Of a stretch of DNA of 64,000 nucleotides, positions 47,937-64,000 are shown one piece after another. The notes below the pieces were generated by a model that did not search any database, had not been told where the DNA came from, and saw only the letters and a program-made list of their open reading frames with translations. Origin of the DNA: Clostridia bacterium. Its GTDB lineage: Bacteria > Bacillota > Clostridia > Christensenellales > Aristaeellaceae. The translations under genes were made by a program, and so were the position numbers. The stretch's first letter is position 1; every line of letters starts with the position of its first letter. The stretch covers positions 1 through 64,000 of the forward strand of contig JAFQOD010000023.1 in NCBI GenBank assembly GCA_017395685.1. The letters run 5' to 3'.

Positions 47937-50606
47937 TTATACCTCCAGGCCCTTTTTGCGCATCCTGCGGCGTTCAAAAATCTTTTCGATTTCCACTACC
48001 GGCACAATCAGCACAGCCAGGCCCATTGCAATGGCATATTCCCACAGGCTGATATAGGTGAAATCAAAGGCATTGCGCAGGAAGGGCACATAAAGCACCA
48101 CAGTGGTCATAATCAGGGAAAGCAGCATTGCACCCCAGAGGAACTTATTGCGGCTTCCCATCTTGAAAATGGATTTATGCAGGGAGCGCATGTTAAAGGA
48201 ATGGAAAATTTCCGTCATGGACATGGCCAGGAATGCCATGGTGGTCCCATGGGCACTGTTCCCGATCAGATTGATTCCTTGCCCAGCGGCATGGGGATCG
48301 AAATAATGGCCCACAAAGAAAGCGAGCAGCGTGATGATGGAAACGGTAATGCCCTGCAGCACCACATCAAATCCCATGCCATCGGCGAATATGCCGGCCT
48401 TGGGATCCCGGGGCTGGCGCTGCATGATATCCTTTTCGCCCTTTTCCATGCCCAATGCCAGGGCGGGGAAACAGTCGGTGATCAGATTGATCCACAGAAG
48501 ATGGGGGGCCTTCAGAATAACAAAGCCCAGCATGGTGGCCACGAAAATGGAGATAACCTCGCTCAGATTGGAGGCCAGCAGGAACTGGATGGCCTTTCGG
48601 ATATTATCATAGATCCTGCGGCCTTCCCCGACAGCGGTGACGATGGTAGCAAAATTATCATCTGCCAGCACCATATCCGCCACATTCTTGGTAACATCGG
48701 TGCCGGTGATGCCCATGCCCACGCCGATATCCGCATTCTTGATGGAGGGGGCATCATTTACGCCGTCACCGGTCATGGCCGTGATCTTACCCCGCTTTTT
48801 CCAGGCGTTTACAATGCGCACCTTATGCTCCGGCTGCACCCGGGCATAGACAGAATACTTTTCGATATCCGTTTCCAGCTGCTCATCAGAAATATCATCC
48901 AGCTGCGCGCCGGTGATAGCCTGATCAGCAGAAGTGATGATGCCCAGCTGCATGGCGATGGCAACGGCGGTATCCCGGTGATCGCCGGTAATCATGATGG
49001 GGCGGATGCCGGCCATGCGGCACTGCTCGATGGCAGGCTTGACTTCGGGGCGGACGGGATCGATCATGCCGGTAAGGCCGATATAGGTCAGATCCTGTTC
49101 CAGGGTAGCGGCATCATAATCCGCCGGTTCCTTATCCCATTTCCGCTGGGCAGCGCACAATACACGCAGCGCCTGATCGGCCATGGCCTTGTTATCGGCC
49201 AGAACAGCCTTGCGGATTTCATCGGTCAGGGGCACTTCCTTACCGTTTACCAAGGCTTTGGAGCAATTCTTCAGCACCTCATCCGGTGCGCCCTTGGTGT
49301 ACTGCAGGATGGTGCCATCGGCCAGACGATGCACGGTGGACATCATCTTGCGCATGGAATCGAAGGGGGCTTCACCGATACGGGGCTGCTCTTGCTTGAG
49401 CGCATTCTTATCCAGGCCCATCTGATAGGCATAATTGACCAGGGCGCATTCGGTAGGCTCGCCCACAGCTTCCTTTTTTTCGGCATCCAGCTGTGCATCT
49501 GAATTCAGGGCCATGGCCGTGGCCAGCAGCTTCTTATCACATTCTGTTTCCTGCACTACGGTCATTTTATTCTGGGTGAGGGTGCCCGTTTTATCCGAGC
49601 AGATAATCTGGGCGCAGCCCAGGGTTTCCACGGCAGTGAGCTTGCGGATAACGGCACTGCGGCGGCTCATATTGGTCACGCCGATGGAAAGCACGATGGT
49701 CACAACGGCGGCCAGGCCTTCAGGAATAGCGGCGACAGCCAGGGATACAGCCACCATGAAGGAATCGATCACCACATCGAAGCTGAAGCCGCCGGCCCGC
49801 AGCAATTGCACCCCAAAGATCACAACGCAGATGCCGATTACTAAATAGGTAAGGATTTTGCTCAGCTGATTCAGCTTCCGCTGCAGGGGCGTCTGCCCTT
49901 CCTGGGCATTGGCAAGGGCATCGGCAATCTTGCCCATTTCGGTATCCATTCCCGTCTGGCATACCACGGCTTTGCCCCTGCCGTATACCACGGTGGATCC
50001 CATATAGACCATATTCTTCCGGTCTCCCAGCGGAACCGGCTTGCCATCCTTTTCTTCCAGGGCATCCACATGCTTATTGACAGGCACGGATTCGCCGGTC
50101 AGGGCAGCCTCTTCAATCTTCATGGAAGCGCATTCGATGATGCGGGCGTCTGCGGGCACGGCATCACCGGCCTCCAGCAGAATAATATCGCCGGGCACCA
50201 GATCCTCACTGCGGATGGTCATCTGCTTTCCATCCCGGATCACTTTGCTGGTTGCGGCGGCAATCTCCTGCAGGGCGGCAATGGCCTTTTCTGCCTTGCT
50301 TTCCTGCAATACGCCCAGGATGGCATTGATGAGCACCACAGCCATAATAATAATCACATCGGCGGGGGATTCATTTTCCACAATGCTCAGCACCAGGGAG
50401 ATGGCAGCAGCAGCGATCAGAATAATAATCATGGGATCGGCAAGCTGCTGGAAAAAGCGCACGATCAGGGGTGTCTTTTTTCCTTCCGCCAGTTTGTTCT
50501 TGCCATACTGTTCCAGCCGCTTTTCAGCCTGGGCAGAGGATAGTCCCTCCTGGCCCACACCTGCATCCAGCATGGCCTGTTCAATTGTTTTTTGGTAATC
50601 CTTCAT
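47937..50606 (-). CDS. P2-type cation-transporting ATPase (Ca/Mn exporter type)
   Basis: The 889-residue pump has the actuator TGES loop (EEAALTGESVPVNK), phosphorylation site ICSDKTGTLTQNK, nucleotide-binding KGAPDE, hinge MTGDGVNDAPS, and ten membrane segments. Membrane helix 4 has PEGL (AVAAIPEGLAAVVT) and helix 6 has NLITDCFPALALG, the ion-binding pattern of SERCA/PacL-type calcium pumps. Because it lies behind a yybP-ykoY manganese riboswitch, manganese export is likely, as for the Lactococcus YoaB pump. Length is typical. It is a single-gene unit. Confidence 0.95.
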   Translation of the reverse strand: MKDYQKTIEQAMLDAGVGQEGLSSAQAEKRLEQYGKNKLAEGKKTPLIVRFFQQLADPMIIILIAAAAISLVLSIVENESPADVIIIMAVVLINAILGVLQESKAEKAIAALQEIAAATSKVIRDGKQMTIRSEDLVPGDIILLEAGDAVPADARIIECASMKIEEAALTGESVPVNKHVDALEEKDGKPVPLGDRKNMVYMGSTVVYGRGKAVVCQTGMDTEMGKIADALANAQEGQTPLQRKLNQLSKILTYLVIGICVVIFGVQLLRAGGFSFDVVIDSFMVAVSLAVAAIPEGLAAVVTIVLSIGVTNMSRRSAVIRKLTAVETLGCAQIICSDKTGTLTQNKMTVVQETECDKKLLATAMALNSDAQLDAEKKEAVGEPTECALVNYAYQMGLDKNALKQEQPRIGEAPFDSMRKMMSTVHRLADGTILQYTKGAPDEVLKNCSKALVNGKEVPLTDEIRKAVLADNKAMADQALRVLCAAQRKWDKEPADYDAATLEQDLTYIGLTGMIDPVRPEVKPAIEQCRMAGIRPIMITGDHRDTAVAIAMQLGIITSADQAITGAQLDDISDEQLETDIEKYSVYARVQPEHKVRIVNAWKKRGKITAMTGDGVNDAPSIKNADIGVGMGITGTDVTKNVADMVLADDNFATIVTAVGEGRRIYDNIRKAIQFLLASNLSEVISIFVATMLGFVILKAPHLLWINLITDCFPALALGMEKGEKDIMQRQPRDPKAGIFADGMGFDVVLQGITVSIITLLAFFVGHYFDPHAAGQGINLIGNSAHGTTMAFLAMSMTEIFHSFNMRSLHKSIFKMGSRNKFLWGAMLLSLIMTTVVLYVPFLRNAFDFTYISLWEYAIAMGLAVLIVPVVEIEKIFERRRMRKKGLEV

Positions 50607-50650
50607 CCTGCTTCATATCCTTTCTTTGTTTTCAGCAGGCCGCAGCTTTG

Positions 50651-50774
50651 AAAAAAGATGAGGCCCATCTGTCCCATTTGACAGATAAGTCTCATCATTT
50701 GAAGCAAAGTCAGAAAGCAAATGCTTCCGGGATGTTGACTTTACTGCGCCGCAGCGTTGATTACTCCCTTATCG
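50651..50774 (-). promoter_or_regulatory. yybP-ykoY manganese riboswitch with terminator
   Basis: On the complement, P1 forms between GATAAG (50773-50768) and CTTATC (50689-50684). Between them lie GGGAGTA, AAAGTCAACATCC and GACTTTG, matching the class layout, then TGATGAGAC. The terminator pairs GATGAG...ATCTGTC with GACAGAT...CTCATC and ends in six T (complement of 50651-50656). The P1 3' arm lies inside the terminator 5' arm, so ligand-stabilised P1 would prevent termination: an ON switch. Confidence 0.82.
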
Positions 50775-50780
50775 GAAAGC

Positions 50781-50809
50781 AGCATACACGATTGGAAGAA
50801 AAAAGTCAA
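50781..50809 (-). promoter_or_regulatory. Promoter of the manganese riboswitch-ATPase transcript
   Basis: On the complement: TTGACT (50809-50804), 17-base spacer, TATGCT (50786-50781). The remaining bases 50810-51004 hold only a weak -10 (TATACT near 50950) for the rightward oxidoreductase gene. Confidence 0.75.
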
Positions 50810-51004
50810 CCCGTTTTTTTATGTTTCCATATTTCTGTCACATTCATGCATTGGCAGAAAGGAATCTTTTCAAGCATCATTTTAGAAAGGATGTGCCAAT
50901 ATTTCTTCTTTGTATCTATGAATTTCTTTCTATGCTTTTCAGAAAATTTGTGTTATACTACTATCGATTCACGATAAATCACGTAAAAACAGGAGGGCAA
51001 TCTC

Positions 51005-52093
51005 ATGTCCAGGCTTCGTATTGGTATCATTGGCTGCGGCGGCATCGCCGGCGGCAAGCATCTTCCTTCCCTGAAAGCCCTGAACCGGACGGATATCGTA
51101 GCTTTCTGCGATCTGATCAAAGAACGGGCTGAAAAAGCTGCCAAGGAATACGGCACCCCTGACGCCAAGGTTTATACCGATTATAAAGAGCTGCTGAAGG
51201 ATGAATCCATCGATGTGTGCTATGTGCTCACCCCCAATCGCAGCCATGCCGATATCTCCATTGACGCCATGCATGCCGGCAAGCACGTTATGTGCGAAAA
51301 GCCCATGGCCAAAACCGCTGCCGATGCCCGCCGCATGGTGGAAGCTGCCAGGGAAACGGGCAAAAAGCTGACCATCGGCTATCAGCATCGTCAGAAGCCC
51401 GCCGCCAAATATGTAAAATCCGTAATCGAGCGGGGCGATCTGGGCGAGATTTATTATTCCAAGGCCCTGGCCATCCGCCGCAGGGGCACCCCCAACTGGG
51501 GCGTTTTCCTCAATGAATATGAGCAGGGCGGCGGCCCCCTCATCGATATCGGCACCCATTCCCTGGATCTTACCCTGTATCTGATGAATAACTACAAGCC
51601 TCGGATGGTGGTGGGCACCCGGTATAAGAAAGTAGAAAACGCCGATTGCGGCAATCCCTGGGGCGGCTGGGGCCCTGATGAAAATCAGACGCTGGAAGAT
51701 GCAGCCTTCGGCTTCATCGTCATGGAAAACGGCGCCACCATCACCCTGGATGCCACCTGGGCCCTCAATACCAGCGAACCCATTCCCGAAGGCAGCTGCG
51801 TACTGTGCGGCAGCAAGGCGGGCGCCCAGATCAAATTTGATCAGGTCGTGATCAATAAGGGCGAATTCAATCGTCTGGTGGAAATCAAGCCCGATCTCAG
51901 GGCCGGCGGCGTTGCCTTCTATGACGGCGTATCTGAAACGCCCCCCATTCTGGAGCAGCGCCAGTGGCTGGATGCCATCGAAAATGATACCGATCCTACT
52001 GTGCTTCCCGAGCAGGCCTGCGTGGTCAGCGAAATTCTGGAGGCCATCTATGTATCCGCCAAGACCGGCGAGCCTGTCTATTTCAACAAATAA
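51005..52093 (+). CDS. Gfo/Idh/MocA-family oxidoreductase
   Basis: The 362-residue enzyme starts behind AGGAGG. The Rossmann domain has GIIGCGGIAGGKHLPSL and the catalytic-lysine motif CEKPMAKTA (about residue 97); the C-terminal sheet domain has GGGPLIDIGTHSLDL with the likely catalytic His. Members oxidise or epimerise sugars and cyclitols with NAD(P). It faces the sugar operon convergently and probably belongs to the same carbohydrate region, though it has a separate transcript. Confidence 0.92.
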   Translation: MSRLRIGIIGCGGIAGGKHLPSLKALNRTDIVAFCDLIKERAEKAAKEYGTPDAKVYTDYKELLKDESIDVCYVLTPNRSHADISIDAMHAGKHVMCEKPMAKTAADARRMVEAARETGKKLTIGYQHRQKPAAKYVKSVIERGDLGEIYYSKALAIRRRGTPNWGVFLNEYEQGGGPLIDIGTHSLDLTLYLMNNYKPRMVVGTRYKKVENADCGNPWGGWGPDENQTLEDAAFGFIVMENGATITLDATWALNTSEPIPEGSCVLCGSKAGAQIKFDQVVINKGEFNRLVEIKPDLRAGGVAFYDGVSETPPILEQRQWLDAIENDTDPTVLPEQACVVSEILEAIYVSAKTGEPVYFNK

Positions 52094-52106
52094 GTGAAAT
52101 ATCCGT

Positions 52107-52135
52107 AAAACCGCCTTCAGAAGAGGGCGGTTTTT
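52107..52135 (+). terminator. Terminator of the Gfo/Idh/MocA gene
   Basis: AAAACCGCC (52107-52115) pairs with GGCGGTTTTT (52126-52135) around a ten-base loop, with the T run in the right arm. Confidence 0.85.
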
Positions 52136-52257
52136 CGTACATGAAAGGGGCATATCGTGAAATAATTCGCTATGCAGGAAAATGCGATGCAGCGCTGCGG
52201 CTGACAAAAGTGATGGAAATGGCCTATTGCCGATGATTTTTCCTGATTTAAGCAAAA

Positions 52258-52305
52258 TAAAAACCCCATTTGTCCGGCATGCACCCGCGCAGCCGGCAAA
52301 TGGGG
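52258..52305 (-). terminator. Terminator of the kinase-aldolase sugar operon
   Basis: CCCCATTTG (52264-52272) pairs with CAAATGGGG (52297-52305), with CCGGC/GCCGG continuing inward. Leftward the stem is followed by TTTTTATTTT. The interval 52136-52257 shows nothing I can name. Confidence 0.88.
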
Positions 52306-52329
52306 TATTTAATTGTGCCTTCATCCAAA

Positions 52330-53844
52330 TCAATCAGCGATCTTCAGGGCCTCAATATCCTCCCAGACGCAATCCATTGCCTCGATCACCGCCCGGAAGG
52401 CAGCATACTTCTTTTTGTAATACGCTGCCCTTTCAGGATCGGGATGATACACCTTTTTGATGCTGGCCCATTGATCGATTGCCTCCTCCAAAGAGGAAAA
52501 TACGCCTACAGCCACGCCCGCATTCATGGCAACGCCCATGGTGCCCAGCTCCGTCGCCCTTGACACCTCAATATCCGCATTCAGGATATCGGCAAATATC
52601 TGCATCCATACGGCGGACCGGGCGGCGCCGCCTGCAATACGCACGCTATCCGGCATCTTCGTATGCCGCAGCAGCCGCTCCACATGCATCTTATGCCCGA
52701 ATGCCACCCCTTCATATACGGCGCGCAGCATATGCGCCCGGCGGTGGGTGCCGTTCAGGCCCACAAACATGGCTTTTGCATCCAGATGCACATTGGTGCC
52801 GTAGATATAGGGCAGGAACAGCAGCGTATCCCGATAATCGGTGCTTTCCACCATTTTTGCGCACTGCGCATAGATATCCTCGTTCCGATCCATCAGCGCA
52901 TCGATGAACCATTCCTGATTGGATGCAGAGGTGGCGCTGCCCTCCAGGATATTATAATAATCATCGATGGCATATACATGCTGCATGAAAACTTCTTCAT
53001 CCTGTACAGGCTGTCTTCCCAGGATGCTGTTGATACTCCAGGAGCCAACTACAATCCCCATCTGCCCTTCCTGCTTTACCCCTGCAGATACCACCGAGGC
53101 GCTTACGTCAAACTGCCCGCCAACCACGGGCGTACCGGCCGTCAGGCCCGTCAGGGTTGCCGCTTCCTTTGTAACAAAGCCGCCGATATCGCTACTGCCG
53201 ATGGCTGCAGGGATTTTGTGCAGATGTTCCTCAATCCCAAGGCAGCGGAATACATCCCGGGAATATTCCCTCTTTTCCAGCGCCATGCAGGATGTGCCGG
53301 AGCCCTCGGTAATTTCCGTATGGAATTCGCCGGTGAGCAAATAACGCACATAATCCTTGGCTGTAACGATATGAGCAGTACAATCCAGCAATTCTTTTGC
53401 ATGATCGCGGAACCAGGCGATAATGGCGCATACATTGCCTGCCCACAGCTGCTGCCTGGTATAGGGATATATCTTTTTGAAGGTGCCATCCTTATACCAG
53501 GTACGGATATACTCCTTGGACCGCATATCACTGCTCATTATGCCGTTGCACACCGGTTCTCCCTGTGAATCAAAAAAGTATGCGCCGTTTCCCTGGCCGG
53601 TGACGCCAATGCCCAGCACATCCGCCCCATCGATTCCGGTTTTTTCCAGCACGCTGCGGATACAGCGATAAATCTTTTGCTTAGCGTCCTGAAGATCCCT
53701 TTCCATCCAATCGGCTTTGGGCTGGATGGTGATAAGCAATTCGCCGGCAGAGGCCAGTTCATTACCCGCCAGATCAAATACAGCAGCCTTCACCATCGTA
53801 CCGCCCATATCAATCCCCATGAGTACTTTCATGCCAATCACCAT
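52330..53844 (-). CDS. FGGY-family sugar kinase, LyxK-like (L-xylulose/3-keto-L-gulonate kinase type)
   Basis: The 504-residue kinase has the N-terminal phosphate motif MGIDMGGTMVKAAVFD, the VGVTGQGNG block with NGIMSSDMRSKEYIRTW and YPYTRQQLWAGN, and the C-terminal FGGY region (VRIAGGAARSAVWMQIFADIL). From memory, the middle blocks follow E. coli LyxK more closely than XylB or AraB. LyxK phosphorylates L-xylulose and 3-keto-L-gulonate. It is last in the sugar operon, 12 bases after the class II aldolase, which suggests kinase then aldol cleavage. Substrate remains inference. Confidence 0.85.
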   Translation of the reverse strand: MVIGMKVLMGIDMGGTMVKAAVFDLAGNELASAGELLITIQPKADWMERDLQDAKQKIYRCIRSVLEKTGIDGADVLGIGVTGQGNGAYFFDSQGEPVCNGIMSSDMRSKEYIRTWYKDGTFKKIYPYTRQQLWAGNVCAIIAWFRDHAKELLDCTAHIVTAKDYVRYLLTGEFHTEITEGSGTSCMALEKREYSRDVFRCLGIEEHLHKIPAAIGSSDIGGFVTKEAATLTGLTAGTPVVGGQFDVSASVVSAGVKQEGQMGIVVGSWSINSILGRQPVQDEEVFMQHVYAIDDYYNILEGSATSASNQEWFIDALMDRNEDIYAQCAKMVESTDYRDTLLFLPYIYGTNVHLDAKAMFVGLNGTHRRAHMLRAVYEGVAFGHKMHVERLLRHTKMPDSVRIAGGAARSAVWMQIFADILNADIEVSRATELGTMGVAMNAGVAVGVFSSLEEAIDQWASIKKVYHPDPERAAYYKKKYAAFRAVIEAMDCVWEDIEALKIAD

Positions 53845-53855
53845 CCATTCCTCAT

Positions 53856-54731
53856 TTATACCCGGTTCACGGCGCCCAGCAATTCATATTTTTCTTTGAT
53901 CTTTGCTTTCAATGCGTCCACGGCGCTTTCCTCTGCGGTCATGGTCCATAATGCAAGGTTCGTCCGGCTGTTCAGGAATTCCTTCATAGCCCCGTAATAT
54001 GCCTCCAGAATTTCGGAGAAAATATTGACCTTGCTGATGCCGCGGGCAATGGCTTCCTTCATCTGATCATCCGGCGTGCCGGAGCCGCCATGCATTACCA
54101 GCGGAACGGCAGATACTTCATTGAGCCTGCTGAGCAATTCAAATTCCAGATGGGGCGTGCACTTATACACGCCATGGGAGGTGCCGACGGATACCGCCAG
54201 GCAATCCACCTTGGTTTCATCGATAAAGCGCCGCATTTCATCCGCATTGGTCAGCGTGCTTTCATGGCCCTGATCCCCATGGGCAACAGATTCGGATTTT
54301 CCCACAATCCCATCGCCTACATGGCCCAATTCCGCCTCAACGGATACGCCGTACATATGGGCGTAATCGGTCACCCACTTGGTGGCGGCGATGTTTTCCT
54401 CCAAGGGCAGGGAAGAACCGTCAAACATGACGGAGCTGTATCCCTGATGAATGGCTTTTTTGATCACCTCAAAATCCATGGCATGATCCAGATGGATGCA
54501 TACCGGCACGCTGGCGCCCACCGCAATTGAATGCATATCCACAGACATATGATCGAATTGCTCCTCGGTCATATCGCCCGTCAAGCCCATCAGGATTACG
54601 GGGGCGCGCAATTCCTCGGCCACGTCAACCACGGCGCGCGCCATCTTGTAGCTGCTCACATCGAATGCAGGAACGGCATAATGCTTTTCCCGTGCATCCG
54701 TCAGAATTTCCTTGATTGAAACAAGTGCCAT
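53856..54731 (-). CDS. Class II (zinc) ketose-phosphate aldolase
   Basis: The 291-residue enzyme is of the FbaA/GatY/KbaY superfamily: start VSIKEILTDAREKHYAVPAFDV, zinc-ligand HLDHAMD (about residue 80), catalytic Asp region in HLDHA, SVEAELGHVGD, and the second zinc/phosphate motifs PLVMHGGSGTPDDQ and SKVNIFSEI. It cleaves a phosphorylated ketose to dihydroxyacetone phosphate and an aldehyde. Fructose- or tagatose-bisphosphate is usual, but here the partner LyxK-like kinase suggests a different ketose phosphate. Confidence 0.9.
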   Translation of the reverse strand: MALVSIKEILTDAREKHYAVPAFDVSSYKMARAVVDVAEELRAPVILMGLTGDMTEEQFDHMSVDMHSIAVGASVPVCIHLDHAMDFEVIKKAIHQGYSSVMFDGSSLPLEENIAATKWVTDYAHMYGVSVEAELGHVGDGIVGKSESVAHGDQGHESTLTNADEMRRFIDETKVDCLAVSVGTSHGVYKCTPHLEFELLSRLNEVSAVPLVMHGGSGTPDDQMKEAIARGISKVNIFSEILEAYYGAMKEFLNSRTNLALWTMTAEESAVDALKAKIKEKYELLGAVNRV

Positions 54732-54756
54732 CGATCTTTCCTCCTCTATCCTTTTA

Positions 54757-55524
54757 TCAGCGCATCAGCATGCCGCCGGTGGCATCCAATGTGGCGCCAG
54801 TCATATAATCCGACTGGCTGGACGCCAAGAACAAGACAATCCTGGCCACTTCTTCGGCCGTGGCCACCCGGCCCAGGGGAATGCGATCCAGATATTTTTG
54901 CCGCCTTTCGGGATCCTTCAGTGCATCGGCAATGATGGGCGTTTCCATAATGCCGGGGGCCACCGCATTCACATTGATACCGTAGGGGGCCGCCTCCCTG
55001 GCCAAGGATACGGTAAAGCCCACAAGCCCCGCCTTGGATGCGGCATAATGGGCATGGCCGGAGGTGGATCCGCCGAAGGCCGCCTGGGATACCAGATTGA
55101 CGATCTTTCCCTTTCTTTCATTCTCCAGGCAATAATTCAGCATGCGTTTGCACAGCATGAAGGGGCCGATCAGATTGATATCCAGGGTTTTCCGGAAGGA
55201 ATCGGTGGTCATTTCCTTTACATAGGCCGTCGGCCATATGCCAGCATTGTTGATCACAATATCCACCTGGCCAAAGGTATCCTTTGCCACATCGAACAAA
55301 TGATTTATCTGCTCTTCACTGGAAACGTCGGTATGTACATAGTGGCAATCCGCCGGATATTTCTGCCTGATTTCCTGAATCCACGCCGCAACCCTTTCCT
55401 CCGGCTGAATATCGGCAATCACCGCATTGCATCCCTCAGCCATCAACTTTTCCGCCACGGCTGCACCCAATCCGCCGCCTGCGCCGGTAATGATGGCGGT
55501 TTTTCCCTGAATCTGATAATCCAC
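54757..55524 (-). CDS. Short-chain dehydrogenase/reductase
   Basis: The 255-residue classical SDR has the cofactor motif TGAGGGLG (about 14-21), NNAG, catalytic Ser (NLVSQAAFG) and YAASK with the Tyr-Lys pair. An acidic residue (IADIQPEE) after the second strand favours NAD over NADP. Substrate is probably a sugar or polyol in this operon. It lies 25 bases before the aldolase start. Confidence 0.92.
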   Translation of the reverse strand: MDYQIQGKTAIITGAGGGLGAAVAEKLMAEGCNAVIADIQPEERVAAWIQEIRQKYPADCHYVHTDVSSEEQINHLFDVAKDTFGQVDIVINNAGIWPTAYVKEMTTDSFRKTLDINLIGPFMLCKRMLNYCLENERKGKIVNLVSQAAFGGSTSGHAHYAASKAGLVGFTVSLAREAAPYGINVNAVAPGIMETPIIADALKDPERRQKYLDRIPLGRVATAEEVARIVLFLASSQSDYMTGATLDATGGMLMR

Positions 55525-55541
55525 GCTTCATTCCTCCCCTA

Positions 55542-56612
55542 TTAACGGGTCAGGCCTTGCAGCCAGGGGTGATCGGCGCATTCCTTGCCGTTCATCAGAT
55601 AATGGGTGGATTTCTTTTCAAACCACAGCTTCTGCAGTTCCTTGAGCAGCAGCACAGGCGAATAGCTGAATGCATCCCGGGTGCCCCCTGCCAGATGGGG
55701 CGTAACGGTCACATTATCCAGGGGGATCATCTTATAGGTGGCTCCCGGAGGCTCCAGATCAAATACATCCAGGGCAGCGCCGGCAATTTTCTTTGCCTTC
55801 AGGCATTCATAGAGGGCGTCTTCATCCACCAGGCCGGAGCGGGCGGTATTGATCAGATAAGCAGTGGGCTTCATTTTTGCCAGCATATCCTTATCCACCA
55901 TATGATAGGTTTCCTTGGTCATACGGGAATGGATGGTCACAAAATCGGAGCATGCCATCAATTCTTCCAGGGAAACCATTTTCACATCGCTCTTTTCCTG
56001 GGAAACAAAGGGATCATAGGCCACAATATTCATTTCAAATCCCTTCAGGCGCTGGGCAACCTTCCGGCCGATATTGCCGTATCCCACAATGCCCACCGTT
56101 TTATCGCACAGATCGGGCACAGAGGCCGCATTGGCATAATCCCGCACCCAATTGCCAGCCTTCATTTCCATATGGGATTTGGCAATATTGCGGCATTCGG
56201 AAATCATCATGCCAACGGTAAAATCCGCAACGGCATTGGCATTGCGGCCGGGGGTGTTGAATACCAGCACGCCTTTTTCCGTGGCATATTCCACATTGAT
56301 ATTTTCCACACCCGCCCGCAGAACGCCGATGGCCTTCAGTTTTTCACAGGAATCAAGCACCTTTTTGGTCATCGGGCAGAACTGGGTAACAATCATATCT
56401 GCATCCCGGATGGCGGCCATGACGCCCTCATCCGGCTCATATTGCTCCCGGCCGCCCTGCTCGATCAGCAGGTTGATCTTTTGCAATTCCTCATAATCCT
56501 TCAGTTTCCATTCGATAACCTCTGTTTCAATATCTGTGCCTTCCAGCCGCTTGAAAGCATTTTCCAGATCGCTGCAAGGAATCAGAAAATCGCCAATCCC
56601 TACAATTTTCAT
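55542..56612 (-). CDS. D-isomer 2-hydroxyacid dehydrogenase
   Basis: The 356-residue protein belongs to the PGDH-like dehydrogenases. The NAD motif is VGIVGYGNIGRKVAQRL, and the catalytic residues are Arg in NTARSGLVDEDAL, Glu in FDLEPP and His in TPHLAGGT. It lacks the ACT domain of long SerA forms. It would interconvert a 2-hydroxyacid and a 2-ketoacid, which fits a route through sugar acids or a reduction of a pyruvate-like product. Second or third in the sugar operon, 17 bases from the SDR. Confidence 0.9.
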   Translation of the reverse strand: MKIVGIGDFLIPCSDLENAFKRLEGTDIETEVIEWKLKDYEELQKINLLIEQGGREQYEPDEGVMAAIRDADMIVTQFCPMTKKVLDSCEKLKAIGVLRAGVENINVEYATEKGVLVFNTPGRNANAVADFTVGMMISECRNIAKSHMEMKAGNWVRDYANAASVPDLCDKTVGIVGYGNIGRKVAQRLKGFEMNIVAYDPFVSQEKSDVKMVSLEELMACSDFVTIHSRMTKETYHMVDKDMLAKMKPTAYLINTARSGLVDEDALYECLKAKKIAGAALDVFDLEPPGATYKMIPLDNVTVTPHLAGGTRDAFSYSPVLLLKELQKLWFEKKSTHYLMNGKECADHPWLQGLTR

Positions 56613-56654
56613 GATTTCATCCTTTCTTACGTGAAAATTTTATCCGGCAATTAT

Positions 56655-58490
56655 TTATCCCTTATTCAACCAGACCGGCATTCCATCATGACTGAAAGAA
56701 ACGGGAACCGGTGCAGGTGTTACCCTGAGCCAGCTGGAGAAGAATGCGCCGGTCTTTCCTGCGCTGGCATAATCGATCAATTGCATCATTTCGCCCGATT
56801 CATCCCTGACCTCGGCAATCACCCATTGATTCCTGCCGTCGCCCTTTTTCACATGCGCATTCCGGAGGGCTTCCACCGAAAATACCGTACGGGGCAGGAT
56901 CTTATGATGGGTATAATCCATATCATGCACCATCAGGATGGGGCCGTAATAGATGGATGTGCGCCCCTTGAACCGATCCTCCCCGGCCCAGAAATGCACC
57001 TGCATATCCAGATCAAGCACGATTGTATCCCCGTTTTCCCATTCCTTTTCAATGGGATAATATTGACCGGCCTTCAGATCGGAAAGCGCCTCGCCGTTCA
57101 GCCTGCCCTTCGTTTCGTGGGACCAGCAGGGAATGCGCATTTGTAGGGAAAACTTTTCCTTCTTTTCCAGGCCCCGCACAGTCACCGTCACACGGCCGGA
57201 TGCCGGATAATCCCCCTGCACATAGAGATTGATTTTCTGTTTTCCAGGCGTCACCGAATCCAATGAGCAGGGGCTGTAATAATTCAGGTACAGGCTCCTT
57301 TCATCGGTCATCGCCGCCCAGCGCACCACTTCACCCACCCCGCGGCAGGAATTGGCCTGGCAGCAATTAACATCCGGCGCTGCGCCATTATAGCAGAAGG
57401 CCAGCGGCACCTGGGATTTAACGAAAAATCCTTCCATGGGATTATCATAGGCCACTTCCCGCAGGTTGGGCGAAAGGCTGCCCAGGATCGTATTGTAATA
57501 GGTCAATTCAATCTCATCGGCCACATAGGAATTTTTGCAGTAACGCAGATATTCCAGGCTGTAGGCGATCCAGGCAATGCTGCAGCAGGTTTCAATGGCA
57601 CCGGGCTCGTAGGGCGTTCCGATGGCGCATTCCTTGGTGCTGAAGGCGCCGTTGTTGTGCCGGTCGGTCTTTACAATGCTCCACCAGATTTTTTCGATTA
57701 CATCGTAATATTCCTGATTGCCCGTTTCTTCCCAGAGCACGCCCAGCATCATGATGCCGTGCAGTGCCTCCCAGCGCTTATCCCCCACCTGATGGAATTC
57801 ATTGCCCGCTTTCACGCCGTTAAACCAATCCATGGTTTGCGGCCATTCCTTTTCCAGCAGGCGCATGCATTCCTTCAGATATTTTTCATCCTTCGTTTCC
57901 TGATAGAGAAGGGCATAGATATGGCCGACGGAAAAAGATACGGTTTTGAAACCAACGGCGTAGGTGCGATCCTCAAAATGACGGATGCAATTATCCGCCG
58001 CTTCCAGCGCAATCTGTTTGGCCAGGGCATTTCCTGTGGCTTTATACCAGTAAAACATGCCGGATGCGCCCAGATACTGGCCCCAGATATCCCAATTCTC
58101 TTCATAGCCCAGCTTATTGCCGCCCATCCGCTTTTCCGGCGGGAAGGATCCAAGATAGCCATCCTGGCCCCGCTCCTTGGCGATCAGGTTGACAATTTCT
58201 TCCCCGGCTTCATAGATCTCCCGGGTCTTATACATCCGATAGCAGAAGGAAAGCCCGATCAGATGCATTCCCCAGAAGCAGGCGGCCTCCAGAAATGCAC
58301 CTTCATAGGGGCTGCGGGTGGCATCCCCCCCATGATTGCACCGGTGCAGTGATTCAATGATTTCCGGATTATCCTCTATTGCATGCAGGCCCCAGGTTTT
58401 GATATAGTTTGCGGTTTTGTAGGCAATAAACCCTTCCGGTTTCAATGCAGAAATCAAGCTTTCAGGCAATTGTTTTCCATCAATGCTCAT
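56655..58490 (-). CDS. GH127-family (DUF1680) beta-L-arabinofuranosidase-like hydrolase
   Basis: The protein (611 residues from 58490, AGGAAAG upstream) has an alpha/alpha barrel followed by beta-sandwich domains. The metal-cysteine catalytic residues known from Bifidobacterium HypBA1 are matched by ETCCS (about 300) and NCCQAN (about 375, nucleophile Cys). No signal peptide, so it cleaves imported oligosaccharides in the cytoplasm. GH127 enzymes release L-arabinose from beta-linked arabinofuranosides, but the wider DUF1680 group includes other activities. It is second in the sugar operon. Confidence 0.88.
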   Translation of the reverse strand: MSIDGKQLPESLISALKPEGFIAYKTANYIKTWGLHAIEDNPEIIESLHRCNHGGDATRSPYEGAFLEAACFWGMHLIGLSFCYRMYKTREIYEAGEEIVNLIAKERGQDGYLGSFPPEKRMGGNKLGYEENWDIWGQYLGASGMFYWYKATGNALAKQIALEAADNCIRHFEDRTYAVGFKTVSFSVGHIYALLYQETKDEKYLKECMRLLEKEWPQTMDWFNGVKAGNEFHQVGDKRWEALHGIMMLGVLWEETGNQEYYDVIEKIWWSIVKTDRHNNGAFSTKECAIGTPYEPGAIETCCSIAWIAYSLEYLRYCKNSYVADEIELTYYNTILGSLSPNLREVAYDNPMEGFFVKSQVPLAFCYNGAAPDVNCCQANSCRGVGEVVRWAAMTDERSLYLNYYSPCSLDSVTPGKQKINLYVQGDYPASGRVTVTVRGLEKKEKFSLQMRIPCWSHETKGRLNGEALSDLKAGQYYPIEKEWENGDTIVLDLDMQVHFWAGEDRFKGRTSIYYGPILMVHDMDYTHHKILPRTVFSVEALRNAHVKKGDGRNQWVIAEVRDESGEMMQLIDYASAGKTGAFFSSWLRVTPAPVPVSFSHDGMPVWLNKG

Positions 58491-58522
58491 TAGACTTTCC
58501 TCCATCATTGCTTATCCGTTCA

Positions 58523-59227
58523 TCAGAGCGGAACAACAACCTGATCGATGCCCCACACCGTTACTTCTTCCACAACGGCACGGGCGGGCAGCTTGCAGAT
58601 GAACAGCGCAGTTTCTGCGATATCCTCAACGCCCAGCTTGCAGGTGGAATCGGCAAGGCCTGCGGCGCTCTGGAAACGGGTGGCGGCCTGGGCGGGAATC
58701 AGGCAGGTAACGCGAACGCCCTGGTTCTGCAGTTCCGTATACAGGCCCTTGGAGAAATTGAGCACACCGGCCTTGGCAGCGGCGTAAACGCTCCATTCCG
58801 GCCAGCATTCCTTGGCACACACAGAAGAAATATTGATGATCGTGCCGCTGCCCTGGCCGCACATGACGGGGGCAAATACATTGGCGCCATAAATCACGCT
58901 GTTCAGATTCAATGCAATGGCTTTATCGATTTCTTCCTTGGTCTGATCGGCCACATTCTTGATGGCGATGCCGCCGCCGGCATTATTGATCAGCACATCC
59001 AGCCTGCCGTACTTTTCAAGAATCATTTTCTTGGCCTCCAGCCAGGCGCAGTAATCCGTCACATCCATGCGCAGGAAATCACAGCCGATTTCCTTGGCCG
59101 TATCCTTGAGTTCATTTTCCTTGCGGGCAGCAATGACGACTTTTGCCCCTGCATCGGTAAATGCCTTTGCCATCGCCTTGCCATAGCCGCTGGTACCACC
59201 GGTAATCAATACGATTTGATCCTTCAT
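58523..59227 (-). CDS. Short-chain dehydrogenase/reductase (first gene of the sugar operon)
   Basis: The protein (234 residues from 59227, AGGGAG upstream) has TGGTSGYGKAM for cofactor binding, NNAGGG, catalytic Ser (INISSVCAKE) and YAAAKAG. Residues after the second strand (AARKENELK) favour NADP, in contrast to the other SDR of the operon. A pair of SDRs with opposite cofactor preference could move reducing power through a polyol. It is transcribed divergently from the DeoR-type regulator. Confidence 0.9.
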   Translation of the reverse strand: MKDQIVLITGGTSGYGKAMAKAFTDAGAKVVIAARKENELKDTAKEIGCDFLRMDVTDYCAWLEAKKMILEKYGRLDVLINNAGGGIAIKNVADQTKEEIDKAIALNLNSVIYGANVFAPVMCGQGSGTIINISSVCAKECWPEWSVYAAAKAGVLNFSKGLYTELQNQGVRVTCLIPAQAATRFQSAAGLADSTCKLGVEDIAETALFICKLPARAVVEEVTVWGIDQVVVPL

Positions 59228-59335
59228 TTTGATTTCTCCCTTCATGCTGTTTTCATTTCTTTTTGCTCCATTGAAACGATTTTGCTACTATTTGAACAAA
59301 TTTTCAAAATTCGTGCATTTCCCCTCCGCCTGCTA

Positions 59336-59369
59336 TTGACTTTTTTCCCGAAAATCATATATTATGATT
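59336..59369 (+). promoter_or_regulatory. Promoter and operator-like repeat of the DeoR-type regulator
   Basis: TTGACT (59336-59341), 18-base spacer, TATTAT (59360-59365). The inverted repeat AATCATA-TAT-TATGATT (59353-59369) covers the -10. It lies in the 252-base divergent region (59228-59479) and could bind the regulator itself; no clear promoter for the leftward operon is visible in that region. Confidence 0.5.
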
Positions 59370-59479
59370 GTGATCATTATTTGGCAAATGCTGCTCATTT
59401 TCTTGCATTTTTCATTCAATGAAAAGAATTGCAAAATTCGATCCGGACGATTCCATTCCATCAACGAGAGGGGATTTCC

Positions 59480-60262
59480 ATGAAAGCCAAGCGTATGACC
59501 CAGATTCTCAATTATGTAACCCAGATCGGCGTATGCTCTTACGAAGAATTGGGCGAGCATTTCAAGGTATCCGTAAGCACCATCAGGCGGGACGTGGAGG
59601 AATTGCTGCGATCCAATTCCCTGGCCAAAGCCCGGGGCGGCGTAATCGCCATCGAGCCGGACGGCAGCCCCGTTCCCTTTGCCGCCAAATCCATGCTGTC
59701 CGGCTCCGGCCTGAGCATTGATGACAAGAAATTTGCCATTGCCCGCCGGGCCAGCGAATTGGTGGAGGATAACGATATCATTTTCCTGGGCTCCGGCATT
59801 ACGGTTGCCTGTATGGTGCCCTTTCTGAAAGGGAAAAGGGGCCTGTACATCATCACCAACAACCTGCATGTGCTCAACGAGGTGAAGCATTATTCCCTCA
59901 ATGCAATGGTTGTGGGCGGCAATCTGAATCTGAACACCTTTTCCATCGTGGGCATTCAATCCATCCGCCAATTGCAATCCCTGAATGCCAACAAGGCATT
60001 TCTGGGATGCAACGGGATTACCACTTCCTGCAGCGTCACCAATGTTTCCGAAGTGGAAGCGGATATCAAACGGGAAGCCATGGCCATCAGCAATGAATGC
60101 TATCTGCTGACCGAGTGCCAGAAATTCGGGAAAATGTCCCTTTACACATTCGCCAATCTGGAGGATTTCAGCACCATCATTACCGATTCGGCGCCATCCA
60201 AGGAATTTATCGATATCTTCCAGCGCATTGACCGCAAGCTGATTGTCGCTGATCAGGCATAA
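59480..60262 (+). CDS. DeoR-family transcriptional regulator
   Basis: The protein (260 residues from 59480, GAGAGGGG upstream) has a DeoR N-terminal helix-turn-helix (RMTQILNYVTQIGVCSYEELGEHFKVSVSTIRRDVEEL) and a C-terminal sugar-phosphate-binding domain of the DeoRC type (IFLGSGITVACMVPFL, AFLGCNGITTSCSVT, EADIKREAMAISNECYLL). Such repressors usually sense a phosphorylated pathway intermediate. Its position between the two leftward sugar gene sets makes it their likely controller. Confidence 0.92.
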   Translation: MKAKRMTQILNYVTQIGVCSYEELGEHFKVSVSTIRRDVEELLRSNSLAKARGGVIAIEPDGSPVPFAAKSMLSGSGLSIDDKKFAIARRASELVEDNDIIFLGSGITVACMVPFLKGKRGLYIITNNLHVLNEVKHYSLNAMVVGGNLNLNTFSIVGIQSIRQLQSLNANKAFLGCNGITTSCSVTNVSEVEADIKREAMAISNECYLLTECQKFGKMSLYTFANLEDFSTIITDSAPSKEFIDIFQRIDRKLIVADQA

Positions 60263-60283
60263 CAACCCAATATCCCGATGAAC

Positions 60284-60324
60284 ACGCTGATATGGGCACT
60301 CAGGCCTCATATCAGCGTATTTTT
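60284..60324 (+). terminator. Terminator of the DeoR-type gene
   Basis: ACGCTGATATG (60284-60294) pairs with CATATCAGCGT (60308-60318), followed by ATTTTT. Confidence 0.88.
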
Positions 60325-60328
60325 ATTG

Positions 60329-61018
60329 TCACTTGTTTACGTAATTCTTATAATCAATGAAAATCAGATGGCTGGGGGCCACATCCTCTTCAATGGCGGG
60401 CAGACGGCCGGAAACCTCATAGAAGCGGTTATCGGTGCAATCGTCATTGGTGGTGGATACTTCATAGAGCACCACGTCGCCGGTGCCGGGAACGCCCTGC
60501 CACTTATGATACTGACCGGGAAGCAGGGTGATGCTCCGGCCGGGCTTCAGGGTAACGGAACCGCCGGCAGGAACGGTGACCTTTTTGCCGTCAATTGTTA
60601 CCGTGACATCAGCATCGGAGAGCTGCTCATTTTCATCAGAACCATACAGCCATACCTGTAGATCGCCGCCGCCGCGGTTGATAATATCCTCCATCTTGCT
60701 CCAATGGAAATGATAGGGCAGAATCTGGCCGTCGGCCACCAGCAGCACCTTTTCCGCATAGGGCTTGGGATACTGATCCTTTTTGAAGAAATTGCCGTTG
60801 CGCAGCGTCAGGATGGTCAAGCCCACCTTGTCGAAATCGCCGCTGCCGAAATCCGTAATATCCCAGCCCAGCATATTATCCACCAGTTCCTGCTCATCGG
60901 CGGGCAGGTTTTTCCAGTCTTCCGGCGTGTAATAGGCAAAAGGAGGAAGAGGATAGCCGAATTTTTCCATTGTCTTGATGGCCCAATCGATTACCCGGTT
61001 GATTTCTGAACGCTTCAT
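60329..61018 (-). CDS. D-lyxose/D-mannose isomerase
   Basis: The protein (229 residues from 61018, AAAGG nine bases upstream) is a cupin of the D-lyxose isomerase family (DUF1498). The metal-binding residues lie in PYHFHWSKMEDIINRGGG (two His and a Glu) and the late LPGQYHKWQG. Characterised members convert D-lyxose to D-xylulose and D-mannose to D-fructose. Next to an alpha-mannosidase-like GH38 gene, mannose isomerisation is a reasonable role, with lyxose as alternative. It ends the upstream sugar set, and lies 15 bases after GH38. Confidence 0.9.
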   Translation of the reverse strand: MKRSEINRVIDWAIKTMEKFGYPLPPFAYYTPEDWKNLPADEQELVDNMLGWDITDFGSGDFDKVGLTILTLRNGNFFKKDQYPKPYAEKVLLVADGQILPYHFHWSKMEDIINRGGGDLQVWLYGSDENEQLSDADVTVTIDGKKVTVPAGGSVTLKPGRSITLLPGQYHKWQGVPGTGDVVLYEVSTTNDDCTDNRFYEVSGRLPAIEEDVAPSHLIFIDYKNYVNK

Positions 61019-61033
61019 TTCTTTCATCCTTTC

Positions 61034-63418
61034 TCATTCAATTCTCAGGGTGTAGATTTGATGTTTATGAAGCGGAATTTTCATCCGCTCTGTTTCCACC
61101 GGTTCATTCAAAGGCTTTTCCACCAGATTCACTTCCGTGATTTTCCGTTTCTTATCAAAGCGAAGGGAGAAAATGCCGTCTTTTCCGCCTGCTTCCTGAA
61201 GTCGCAGGATACATCCCTTTCCGTCATGGGCCGGCTTGAATGCGGTGATCACCACATCCCCCTCCCAGTGAAAGGGCACGGATAAATCGCACAGGTTGTA
61301 GGCATATCCTGCTCGGGTCAATTCCCCTTTTCCGATTCCATGAACATAAGGCCATACCTCAAATTCCAGGCAATGCTTGCCGGTATCCCTTGTGCCATCG
61401 CAATCCCAGATTTCTTCGATGCTTGGGATCACTGTATCGCCGCACATCTGCGGGGATCGAAGCAGGGAAATCTCTATCCGGCCCGGCATCCATTTCAAGG
61501 ACGGCAGCCCCCGGTTCAATACCGCCACGCCTTTTTCGCCGTCGATGGCGTGCTTCATCCAATGCAGGGCCGGATATTCCCCAAGGGGCATGGTATATTT
61601 GCTCTCGGGCCGGGTAGGCCTGATGGTTTCCGGATCAAAGGCCCGATCGATATGGGCGTAGGGGATTTCCCACGTGGATACCAGCCCGTGATCATCCACC
61701 GGAATAATGGCCCGCAACCGGCGGTCATAGGTATCCCAATCCACCTCGATGCGGAAGGAAAGTCGCTTGCCATCGGCGGATGGCCTTACAAAAATCTCCC
61801 AGGACAGCTTTTTCACGGAGGGATCGGTGCCGTCGTATTTCCCCCGCCACCACAGGCAATCCCCCATATCGTAAACCACATAATTGTATTTCCCCAGCAG
61901 CAGCGGATCCCCAAGATACAGGGTGCTGTGATTATCGCCATAATCCGTCTGCAGCATCAATTCGCCGATGCGCACCTGATCGCTGTGATTCCGGATCCAT
62001 GTGATATTTTCGAAGCGGAATTTTCCGAATACGTCCTGTCCATCCGTCAGGGCGCTGCGTATTCCCCGTAAATCGTATTCCACTTCAATTTCTCCCAGGG
62101 TTTTGCGGCCGATTCCCTCCACATGCCGCCGGCCATCCGGCAATCGCTTGCAGATTTTCTGCTTGGGAATCGGAAGGATCCCATCGGCGATGGCGTCGGC
62201 CTCATCCAGATAATCCATCAATTCCTGCTGGCCGCTATCGGTATGGGCACCGCTGATGGAATCATGATGCATATTGAGAAGCACATTACGCCAGGCCTGA
62301 TCCAATTCTTCCTGGGGAATGCTCACCTCTTCGCCCCGATAAATTTTCCCTGCCAGGAAGGCCTCCGCCCTGCATAAGGCATAGGCCGTGGCCCGGGTGC
62401 GCTGCTTATTTTCGATCCGGCTCACATAGCAGCCCTGATGCACGGGATTCAGATCGCAGGTGATCTGCTGATGCTGATCGGCAACGGAAAGATAATATTC
62501 CTTCTTTTCCGTCCAGAAATCCCCCACATTGGCATAGGTGATTTCCACGTCGGGCCGCTCCTGCCGCACCCGATCCACCGCATCCGTGATGACCCGGCTG
62601 GGCAGCACTTCCTCACCGCCGATGAGCGCATAGACGGTCTCCTCCGGGCGGCCGATCATCTTATGCAGAAAGGCGATCACTTCATCCATGGGATAGGGAT
62701 GCTCCTCCACCATCCCTCTTTGACCGCAATCGTCGCAGCCCCTTCCGGCGCATTGCCTGCAATGGGTGTGGCGGGCGGTGATGTAATAGGCATTTCCGTC
62801 ATTCCACCAGATGAATTTGCCTATCCTGTCCAGGCAGGGCAGCTTTGTCCCATCGATCCCCACCCAATAATCCTCATCCACATAGCGGTATTTCAATCCG
62901 CCGATGCATTCTGCGCCTGCCAGCTTTACCACCTGGGGCATATTGGCGCTGTTGCCGAAGGCGTCCCACAGCCAGGCAATTTTCCGGCCAGGGCTGTCCT
63001 TGGCGCATACCCGATCGTAAAATGGCTCTGCCAGCAGATAATTGCGGGCCAGCCCCTCCGCCGGGGAATAATTGGTTTCGGGGGTTAATTCTCCCTGCAG
63101 CAGAATTTCAATCCTGCCATCCCGGATCAGCTGCTCGATCCTTTCTCTCTTTTCAGGATGGCGATTCAGATAGGTACGCAGCACCAGATGCTGTCCCTCT
63201 GAATAATGCATGCCTGCATGCGCTTCCAGATCCAGATACCGATCCATGATCCATTCCCAAAGATCGGCATAGCTGTGATGCAGATAACCGTTATGAAGCG
63301 TCTGCCTGTCATAGCAGCGGGCCCATTGCGGATCCAGATGGCTGTGCCAGATGATTTTCAGCTTCTTCCCCAAATCATCCACATCCTTTTTCGGTAAATC
63401 ACGGAATCCATATTTCAT
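61034..63418 (-). CDS. GH38 alpha-mannosidase-like enzyme with a zinc-ribbon insertion
   Basis: The 794-residue protein has the GH38 zinc site and catalytic residues: HSHLDPQW (His27, Asp29), WLWDAFGNSANMPQ (nucleophile Asp152) and NMHHDSISGAHTD. An insertion with four cysteines (C220, C223, C228, C231; pattern CxxCxGRGCxxC) looks like a small zinc ribbon of DnaJ type, which I do not know from other GH38 enzymes. The C-terminal half is beta-rich. No signal peptide. The start has only a poor ribosome site, so a different start or coupling to the upstream gene is possible. Substrate linkage is unproven. Confidence 0.87.
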   Translation of the reverse strand: MKYGFRDLPKKDVDDLGKKLKIIWHSHLDPQWARCYDRQTLHNGYLHHSYADLWEWIMDRYLDLEAHAGMHYSEGQHLVLRTYLNRHPEKRERIEQLIRDGRIEILLQGELTPETNYSPAEGLARNYLLAEPFYDRVCAKDSPGRKIAWLWDAFGNSANMPQVVKLAGAECIGGLKYRYVDEDYWVGIDGTKLPCLDRIGKFIWWNDGNAYYITARHTHCRQCAGRGCDDCGQRGMVEEHPYPMDEVIAFLHKMIGRPEETVYALIGGEEVLPSRVITDAVDRVRQERPDVEITYANVGDFWTEKKEYYLSVADQHQQITCDLNPVHQGCYVSRIENKQRTRATAYALCRAEAFLAGKIYRGEEVSIPQEELDQAWRNVLLNMHHDSISGAHTDSGQQELMDYLDEADAIADGILPIPKQKICKRLPDGRRHVEGIGRKTLGEIEVEYDLRGIRSALTDGQDVFGKFRFENITWIRNHSDQVRIGELMLQTDYGDNHSTLYLGDPLLLGKYNYVVYDMGDCLWWRGKYDGTDPSVKKLSWEIFVRPSADGKRLSFRIEVDWDTYDRRLRAIIPVDDHGLVSTWEIPYAHIDRAFDPETIRPTRPESKYTMPLGEYPALHWMKHAIDGEKGVAVLNRGLPSLKWMPGRIEISLLRSPQMCGDTVIPSIEEIWDCDGTRDTGKHCLEFEVWPYVHGIGKGELTRAGYAYNLCDLSVPFHWEGDVVITAFKPAHDGKGCILRLQEAGGKDGIFSLRFDKKRKITEVNLVEKPLNEPVETERMKIPLHKHQIYTLRIE

Positions 63419-63441
63419 GCACTATTCAGAAGCACCGCTGA

Positions 63442-63470
63442 CCGGCAGGAGGGGAATCCCCCCCCGCCGG
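63442..63470. repeat. GC-rich hairpin between the binding-protein and GH38 genes
   Basis: On the complement CCGGCGGGGGGGG pairs with CCCCTCCTGCCGG around ATT, with two mismatches. No T run follows. Such hairpins after a binding-protein gene often protect or partly terminate its message, raising its level over downstream genes. Confidence 0.6.
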
Positions 63471-63482
63471 AAAATGTGCGGA

Positions 63483-64000
63483 TTATTCCGCAGCGGGTTC
63501 GCCATAGATCTTGTAGAAGTTCTTCAGCGCTTCCTCACGATAGGTCAGGAAAGCTTCGTTCAGGCCATCTACATAATCACCGGGTTCGATGGTGTACAGC
63601 CACAGACCAGCTTCCACATGAGCCTGGCCGTTATAATCGCCGTTGGAATAGATGCCGCCGAAGAATTCAGGCCAGCCTACCACGAAGCGGCTTACGTCGG
63701 TTACATAGTTGCTGCCGGAGGCAATGAAGGCTTCCCAATCATTCCAGTAGCCCATATCGGGGAACAGATCGGCGACCATCTGGTTCAGTTCGGGCTCGTT
63801 GATCATGGGCAGATAGTCGGGGCCGTTGGGCCACATCTTCAGGCCGCTGTCTTCATAGGTCATTTCGGCGTAGAGCTTGGTGCGTTCCTTCCAGCCTTCC
63901 AGGCCCCAGAACATGAACTTCATGGCTTCATAGGCTTCACGGGGATATTCGGTATGGGCGGAAACATAACCGGTATCGATCCAAGAATAGATGCCGGGGT
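63483..64000 (-). CDS. Extracellular sugar-binding protein of an ABC transporter, C-terminal part
   Basis: The frame is open to the right window edge; 172 codons are visible, starting within PGIYSWIDTGYVSAHTEYPREAYEAMKFM. The section resembles the C-terminal lobe of family 1 solute-binding proteins, with aromatic-rich segments (GLWLYTIEPGDY, NDWEAFIASG) and a final helix ending EALKNFYKIYGE. It probably delivers oligosaccharides to a transporter whose permeases lie beyond the edge. It heads, or continues, the GH38-isomerase operon. N-terminus and signal type cannot be seen. Confidence 0.8.
   Translation of the reverse strand, partial: PGIYSWIDTGYVSAHTEYPREAYEAMKFMFWGLEGWKERTKLYAEMTYEDSGLKMWPNGPDYLPMINEPELNQMVADLFPDMGYWNDWEAFIASGSNYVTDVSRFVVGWPEFFGGIYSNGDYNGQAHVEAGLWLYTIEPGDYVDGLNEAFLTYREEALKNFYKIYGEPAAE

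Follow-up and report, generated by a model that had tools for sequence, protein, structure and literature searches.

A conserved dehydrogenase, aldolase and kinase gene set in Firmicutes that may convert a sugar acid to dihydroxyacetone phosphate

Within the first 64,000 nucleotides of contig JAFQOD010000023.1 (hereafter, the window), which comes from an uncultured Clostridia bacterium of the Aristaeellaceae, six minus-strand open reading frames (ORFs) at 52330-59245 encode, from first to last, a short-chain dehydrogenase/reductase (SDR; S1), a glycoside hydrolase family 127 (GH127)-like protein, a D-2-hydroxyacid dehydrogenase (H), another SDR (S2), a class IIB aldolase (A), and an FGGY carbohydrate kinase (K). 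S2, H, A, and K form a unit that recurs across Firmicutes. Our best explanation, held a little short of even confidence, is that the operon serves to break down a sugar acid, the likeliest candidates being six-carbon aldonates and hexulosonates, by way of a final aldolase step that forms dihydroxyacetone phosphate (DHAP). The features of the locus are as follows.

52330-53844, minus strand: K, FGGY carbohydrate kinase of the LyxK clade, conserved core (PF00370/PF02782 above cut-off)
53856-54731, minus strand: A, predicted class IIB DHAP aldolase lacking the far-phosphate site, conserved core (PF01116, 286 bits)
54757-55524, minus strand: S2, SDR oxidoreductase, conserved core (PF13561/PF00106)
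55542-56612, minus strand: H, D-2-hydroxyacid dehydrogenase, conserved core (PF02826/PF00389)
56655-58508, minus strand: GH127-like hydrolase, accessory (PF07944, 88.7 bits against a cut-off of 24.9)
58523-59245, minus strand: S1, second SDR and first gene of the operon, accessory (PF00106)
59429-60262, plus strand: DeoR-family regulator, divergent from the operon (PF00455/PF08220 above cut-off)
52255-52314, minus strand: rho-independent terminator closing the operon (two 18-base arms with 89% complementarity, followed by TTTTTATTTT)

All six ORF products score above the curated Pfam cut-offs. The first-pass annotation of this stretch described six tightly spaced leftward genes ending in one terminator, and this layout is borne out. 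The gaps from S1 through K are 14, 42, 17, 25, and 11 bases, and 3′ of K stands a strong hairpin (arms at 52255-52272 and 52297-52314, followed by TTTTTATTTT), in a region with a folding z of -3.66. A simple terminator scan overlooked it because the hairpin exceeds the length that the scan permits. S1 has two candidate starts, at 59245 or at an internal ATG near 59227.

Using K or H as the query, we searched about 1,330 genomes and then inspected the flanking genes. S2, H, A, and K occur together in six other Firmicutes loci (L048, L065, L069, L077, L079, and L080; form 1), each of which carries an S2 relative 50-57% identical to that of the window. Because this four-gene set recurs, the combination in the window is beyond chance. 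A second form, found in L076, L081, L082, L083, L084, and L085 and partially in L066, L067, and L073, brings together H, A, a gluconate-type GntP permease (329 bits against a cut-off of 293), and an FGGY kinase that falls in a different clade of the kinase tree, near GlpK; L081-L085 carry a regulator of the RpiR type, and L076 has a DeoR gene. GH127 is absent from all related H loci, with a single 25% match in L042, which lacks H, and S1 has a single 37% match near the related loci, in L070. Since neither gene is conserved with the core, the conserved unit is S2-H-A-K, and the GH127-like gene and S1 are local.

Other copies vary around this core. In L078, a galactitol-type phosphotransferase system (PTS) replaces K and S2, leaving H, A, and a second H with no kinase or SDR. 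H accompanies an SDR in L070-L072, with a zinc dehydrogenase as well in L070 and L072, and both L070 and L071 carry a kinase together with a DeoC-type aldolase, PduL, and an acylating aldehyde dehydrogenase in place of A. A hydroxypyruvate-isomerase-like (Hyi-like) gene lies beside H in L069, and L084 contains a glycerate kinase (498 bits). Near L066 (1226-2587), L076 (11488-12804), and L082 (775-2031), we observed a nickel-pincer isomerase like NCBIfam group 22. Members of the nickel-pincer superfamily act on 2-hydroxy acids (PMC7583248, PMC11770544), and the context with H, A, and a kinase suggests that this isomerase is a sugar-acid epimerase.

The aldolase offers the clearest view of the chemistry. 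A passes the broad ketose-bisphosphate aldolase model TIGR00167 (240 versus 215.6 bits) and reaches no NCBIfam equivalog cut-off for fructose-bisphosphate (FBP) or tagatose-bisphosphate (TBP) aldolases; its closest solved enzymes are KbaY and YdjI. We aligned the motifs of A with those of 14 related aldolases and references. A keeps the metal ligands, the catalytic Asp, and the DHAP-phosphate motifs (HLDH, EAELG, SHG, HGGS, and KVN(..S)). It lacks the DPR motif near the C terminus, and the residue six positions past the conserved Asn is non-basic. DPR is missing from all 15 aldolases and the basic R259/K position from 14 of them, Arg being kept in the most distant, that of L068. Both features are also lost in Escherichia coli YdjI; KbaY, GatY, and the FBP aldolase encoded by the same genome as A retain them. 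In the Giardia FBP aldolase, R259 and the Arg of D278-P-R280 bind fructose-1,6-bisphosphate, and the R259A substitution almost abolishes catalytic efficiency (PMC6692403). Because the far-phosphate DPR motif is lost while the DHAP-phosphate motifs are kept, we infer that A is a DHAP aldolase whose second product would be an unphosphorylated aldehyde, a result that fits the cleavage to DHAP plus an aldehyde suggested by the first-pass annotation. Grouping with fructose-bisphosphate enzymes was not seen among the FBP/TBP enzymes tested. In the aldolase tree, A joins the L048, L078, and L079 proteins at 98/97, and KbaY/GatY and this FBP aldolase of the same genome fall outside that group; the tree does not resolve the split between YdjI and the window clade.

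Statements about the host genome as a whole, a 2.83 Mb draft that is 96% complete, rest on searches for individual named families. The best NCBIfam match of K is XylB (TIGR01312), at 243.3 bits against an equivalog cut-off of 380.25, whereas the true XylB of the same genome, on contig C20, scores 546.6 bits to that model. In a tree with E. coli references, K forms a clade with LyxK at 100/99, and XylB, AraB, RhaB, FucK, and GlpK all lie outside it. The kinase thus does not cluster with plain xylulokinases, and the earlier label of a LyxK-like kinase appears right as to kinship. K is 42% identical to the L069 kinase. Its relatives in the same bacterial family adjoin UlaE- and UlaD-like genes in L040, L042, and L044 (names assigned by eye), and E. 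coli lyxK adjoins sgbH, sgbU, and sgbE. LyxK accepts L-xylulose and 3-keto-L-gulonate, and its product is a 5-phosphate that passes to UlaE/UlaF-type epimerases. In two Streptococcus species (L045 6415-12271, and L046), we also observed a LyxK-clade kinase with a galactitol-type EIIC, an amidohydrolase-like gene, and a different 2-hydroxyacid dehydrogenase.

H carries the Arg-Glu-His triad and GxGxxG of its superfamily in our motif alignment, and it is probably NAD-linked because an Asp follows the second β strand. In the tree, it falls within a 29-member clade (100/100) far from GhrB and SerA, and it reaches no equivalog cut-off among the NCBIfam models. All 29 members share the signature R(A/G/T)GxE, whose Arg, residue 99 in the window protein, GhrB and SerA lack. 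The signature sits in what we take to be the loop that holds the substrate carboxylate in this superfamily; an additional Arg at this loop suggests that the substrate bears a further anionic or polar group. Both SDRs have the YxxxK motif. S2 is probably NAD-linked because an Asp follows β2, and S1 probably NADP-linked because an Arg does. The first-pass annotation had left the sugar-acid branch implied by the dehydrogenase unexplained; H proves to be the component that stays constant across the loci, and it indicates a sugar acid.

A sugar acid is the expected substrate because the related loci bring together a GntP permease, a 2-hydroxyacid dehydrogenase, and a nickel-pincer isomerase; because A appears to be a DHAP aldolase, a keto group beside the phosphorylated CH2OH would be required. 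In the proposed route, the terminal CH2OH would be flanked by a keto group that S2 forms (or reduces), and K would add a phosphate to this CH2OH. Cleavage of the keto-acid phosphate by A would then feed DHAP into glycolysis and leave a short aldehyde acid: a 5-keto-hexonate 6-phosphate would give DHAP and tartronate semialdehyde, and a 4-keto-pentonate 5-phosphate DHAP and glyoxylate. H would work on the carbon adjoining the carboxylate, whether of the intact sugar acid or of the released oxo-acid; S2 and H, both apparently NAD-linked, would set the oxidation state. Reduction of the released oxo-acid by H would balance the NADH from S2, and the Hyi-like and glycerate kinase neighbors would fit this direction; H acting at C2 of the acid itself would fit better with the signature Arg and with those loci in which H occurs without A. 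GH127 and S1 may be a local add-on that releases and oxidizes a sugar of an imported oligosaccharide.

Several observations weigh against this explanation. L070 and L071 have H and a LyxK-clade kinase with a DeoC-type aldolase and no PF01116 aldolase, so H cannot always act on the product of A. Searches of the genome for two classes of glycerate kinase (PF02595 and PF13660) found neither, so a three-carbon product from a six-carbon acid, if it became glycerate, would have no such kinase to act on it. There is no transporter within the operon. The GntP form uses an FGGY kinase of the clade near GlpK, so its substrate may differ from that of form 1. The substrate itself is a predicted one.

The surroundings of the operon raise the idea that it processes the acid or sugar joined to mannose in an alpha-mannosyl oligosaccharide taken up by the cell, as a mannose or glucuronomannan branch; this would be compatible with the sugar-acid route and would name its source, and we consider it a minor possibility. 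The 183-base region at 59246-59428 separates S1 from the DeoR-family gene, the presumed local regulator of the operon. Past that gene lie genes for a D-mannose/D-lyxose isomerase, a GH38 enzyme, and an ATP-binding cassette (ABC) transporter, and then a beta-mannan locus. These genes, directly upstream, speak for the mannose branch. They lie beyond the DeoR gene in another transcription unit, however, and the core is found elsewhere without mannose genes. The isomerase and the GH38-type alpha-mannosidase, which has no obvious signal peptide, occupy 60329-63418 behind a sugar ABC transporter, in a transcription unit separate from the six-gene operon. The beta-mannan locus (L003 12173-17795; contig C18, 76173-81795), with which the contig runs to its end at 83369, encodes a GDSL esterase, an AGE-family epimerase, two GH130 phosphorylases, and a secreted GH5. 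On the other side, a Gfo/Idh/MocA dehydrogenase gene at 51005-52093 converges with the operon and is a possible partner, with a further hairpin at 52099-52142 for this convergent gene. An Rfam scan of 50000-64000 gave no matches.

An oxidative pentose route, which we think improbable, would make use of all six genes. GH127 would free L-arabinose, the SDRs would convert it to 4-keto-L-arabinonate, K would phosphorylate O5, A would yield DHAP and glyoxylate, and H would reduce the latter to glycolate. Glyoxylate reductases do occur in the broad family of H, but H lies far from GhrB in the tree, and neither GH127 nor S1 belongs to the conserved unit. The GH127-like protein keeps the catalytic Zn/Cys motifs E-T-C and C-C when aligned to solved GH127 structures of the HypBA1 type, scores at most 72 bits to solved enzymes, and matches NF049879 (aceric-acid hydrolase, of the same group) below its cut-off. 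Because its sequence shows no signal peptide, it probably acts within the cell on imported material. None of the other genomes among the 250 of the family has a close copy. A secreted paralogue, 48% identical, lies apart from sugar genes in L087 (8901-10796; G000:C71). We rejected a GH127-centered arabinose locus, since the C71 paralogue stands alone and close copies are lacking in the family.

The absence of AraA favors the oxidative pentose route: a search for this isomerase (PF02610) gave no match in the 96% complete genome, with E. coli and Bacillus subtilis controls positive. Nor do araA, araB, or araD lie right beyond the window, where the contig continues as the beta-mannan locus to 83369, and an AraBAD set just past the window was likewise rejected. 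The genome does have an AraD (contig C70; 389 bits against a subfamily cut-off of 257), an AraB-like kinase (C72; 526 bits, below the equivalog cut-off of 583), and, on C11, a cluster of an arabinofuranosidase (PF06964), a GH43, a fucose-isomerase-family protein, a zinc dehydrogenase, a DeoC-family aldolase, and two SDRs. These genes, which include another isomerase, make a different home for arabinose plausible and count against the oxidative pentose route; arabinose likely has another route in this genome. Given that AraA is lacking, the C11 cluster (L106 3306-12358; G000:C11:55305-64357) may be an unusual arabinose route. L-Arabinose may nonetheless supply a five-carbon acid for the operon.

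It is quite unlikely that H instead oxidizes an aldonate at C2, K forms the 2-keto-6-phosphate, and A cleaves it to hydroxypyruvate and glyceraldehyde 3-phosphate. This scheme accounts for L078, with its PTS, H, A, and second H and no kinase or SDR, and for the presence of a nickel-pincer isomerase and a glycerate kinase close to certain copies. It requires the reverse of what we see in A, where the DHAP-phosphate motifs are intact and the far-phosphate site is gone, and on these phosphate sites we set the 2-keto-6-phosphate orientation aside.

The route that the first-pass annotation had proposed, from L-arabinose to L-xylulose, LyxK-like phosphorylation, and cleavage to DHAP and glycolaldehyde, now seems very unlikely. 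The LyxK clade, a DHAP aldolase with an unphosphorylated acceptor, two SDRs, and GH127 would all suit it. The kinase and aldolase do not fit as a pair, because LyxK makes a 5-phosphate whereas A needs the phosphate beside the keto carbon, that is, L-xylulose 1-phosphate, and the epimerases that follow LyxK are absent here. Moreover, GH127 is not conserved with the core, and the route leaves no role for H, the most constant gene. A plain xylulokinase with an FBP aldolase was rejected by model cut-offs, trees, and motifs.

Among known systems, the sugar-acid route is closest in its working to the E. coli ydj cluster and closest in its kinase to the ula/yia pathway. The ydj cluster also combines a sugar kinase and dehydrogenases with YdjI, a class IIB DHAP aldolase lacking the far-phosphate site, whose RefSeq substrate name is L-glycero-L-galacto-octuluronate 1-phosphate. 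It has no 2-hydroxyacid dehydrogenase, however, and YdjH is a PfkB-type kinase, whereas the kinase here is FGGY. The E. coli yiaK-sgbE/ula pathway (LyxK, SgbH, SgbU, and SgbE) shares the LyxK-clade FGGY kinase but ends in a decarboxylase and epimerases, with no DHAP aldolase or H-type 2-hydroxyacid dehydrogenase. In the inositol pathway, the PF01116 aldolase IolJ splits a keto-acid phosphate into DHAP and malonate semialdehyde, much as proposed for A; that pathway uses the PfkB-type kinase IolC and has neither an FGGY kinase nor a 2-hydroxyacid dehydrogenase. The L-idonate/2-keto-L-gulonate pathway (IdnD, IdnO, GhrB, and gluconokinase) resembles our loci in the co-occurrence of a zinc dehydrogenase, an SDR, and a 2-hydroxyacid dehydrogenase, a likeness that extends to the kinase in L070, L079, and L080, but it has no aldolase and ends in 6-phosphogluconate. 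ACI-type microcompartment loci pair an aldolase with a hydroxyacid dehydrogenase (PF00389/PF02826), but the aldolase is of PF00596, shell proteins are present, and an FGGY kinase is not described (PMC8217296). We also observed DeoC-type aldolases and PduL with encapsulation-peptide-like N-terminal extensions in L069 (6664-7422), L070 (1912-6121), and L071 (7051-13068). Together with an acylating aldehyde dehydrogenase, these enzymes adjoin the H-clade dehydrogenase and LyxK-clade kinase and resemble SPU-type microcompartment loci; a rough motif scan found no shell proteins. We found no published description of this gene combination in the open-access literature.

Taken more broadly, the loci may represent a widespread sugar-acid pathway of anaerobic Firmicutes, a generalization we advance tentatively, in which a new clade of H with its signature Arg acts with an FGGY kinase and a class IIB aldolase without bisphosphate specificity that would yield DHAP and an oxo-acid from a keto-acid 1-phosphate. 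Because its steps are of known chemical types, it would be an unassigned pathway and not a new principle. If the proposal is correct, a shared role in many Firmicutes would emerge for enzymes labeled by general models as xylulokinase, fructose-bisphosphate aldolase, and phosphoglycerate dehydrogenase, the H clade would serve as a marker gene for the pathway, and these bacteria would have a further outlet for sugar acids in addition to the Entner-Doudoroff and hexuronate routes.

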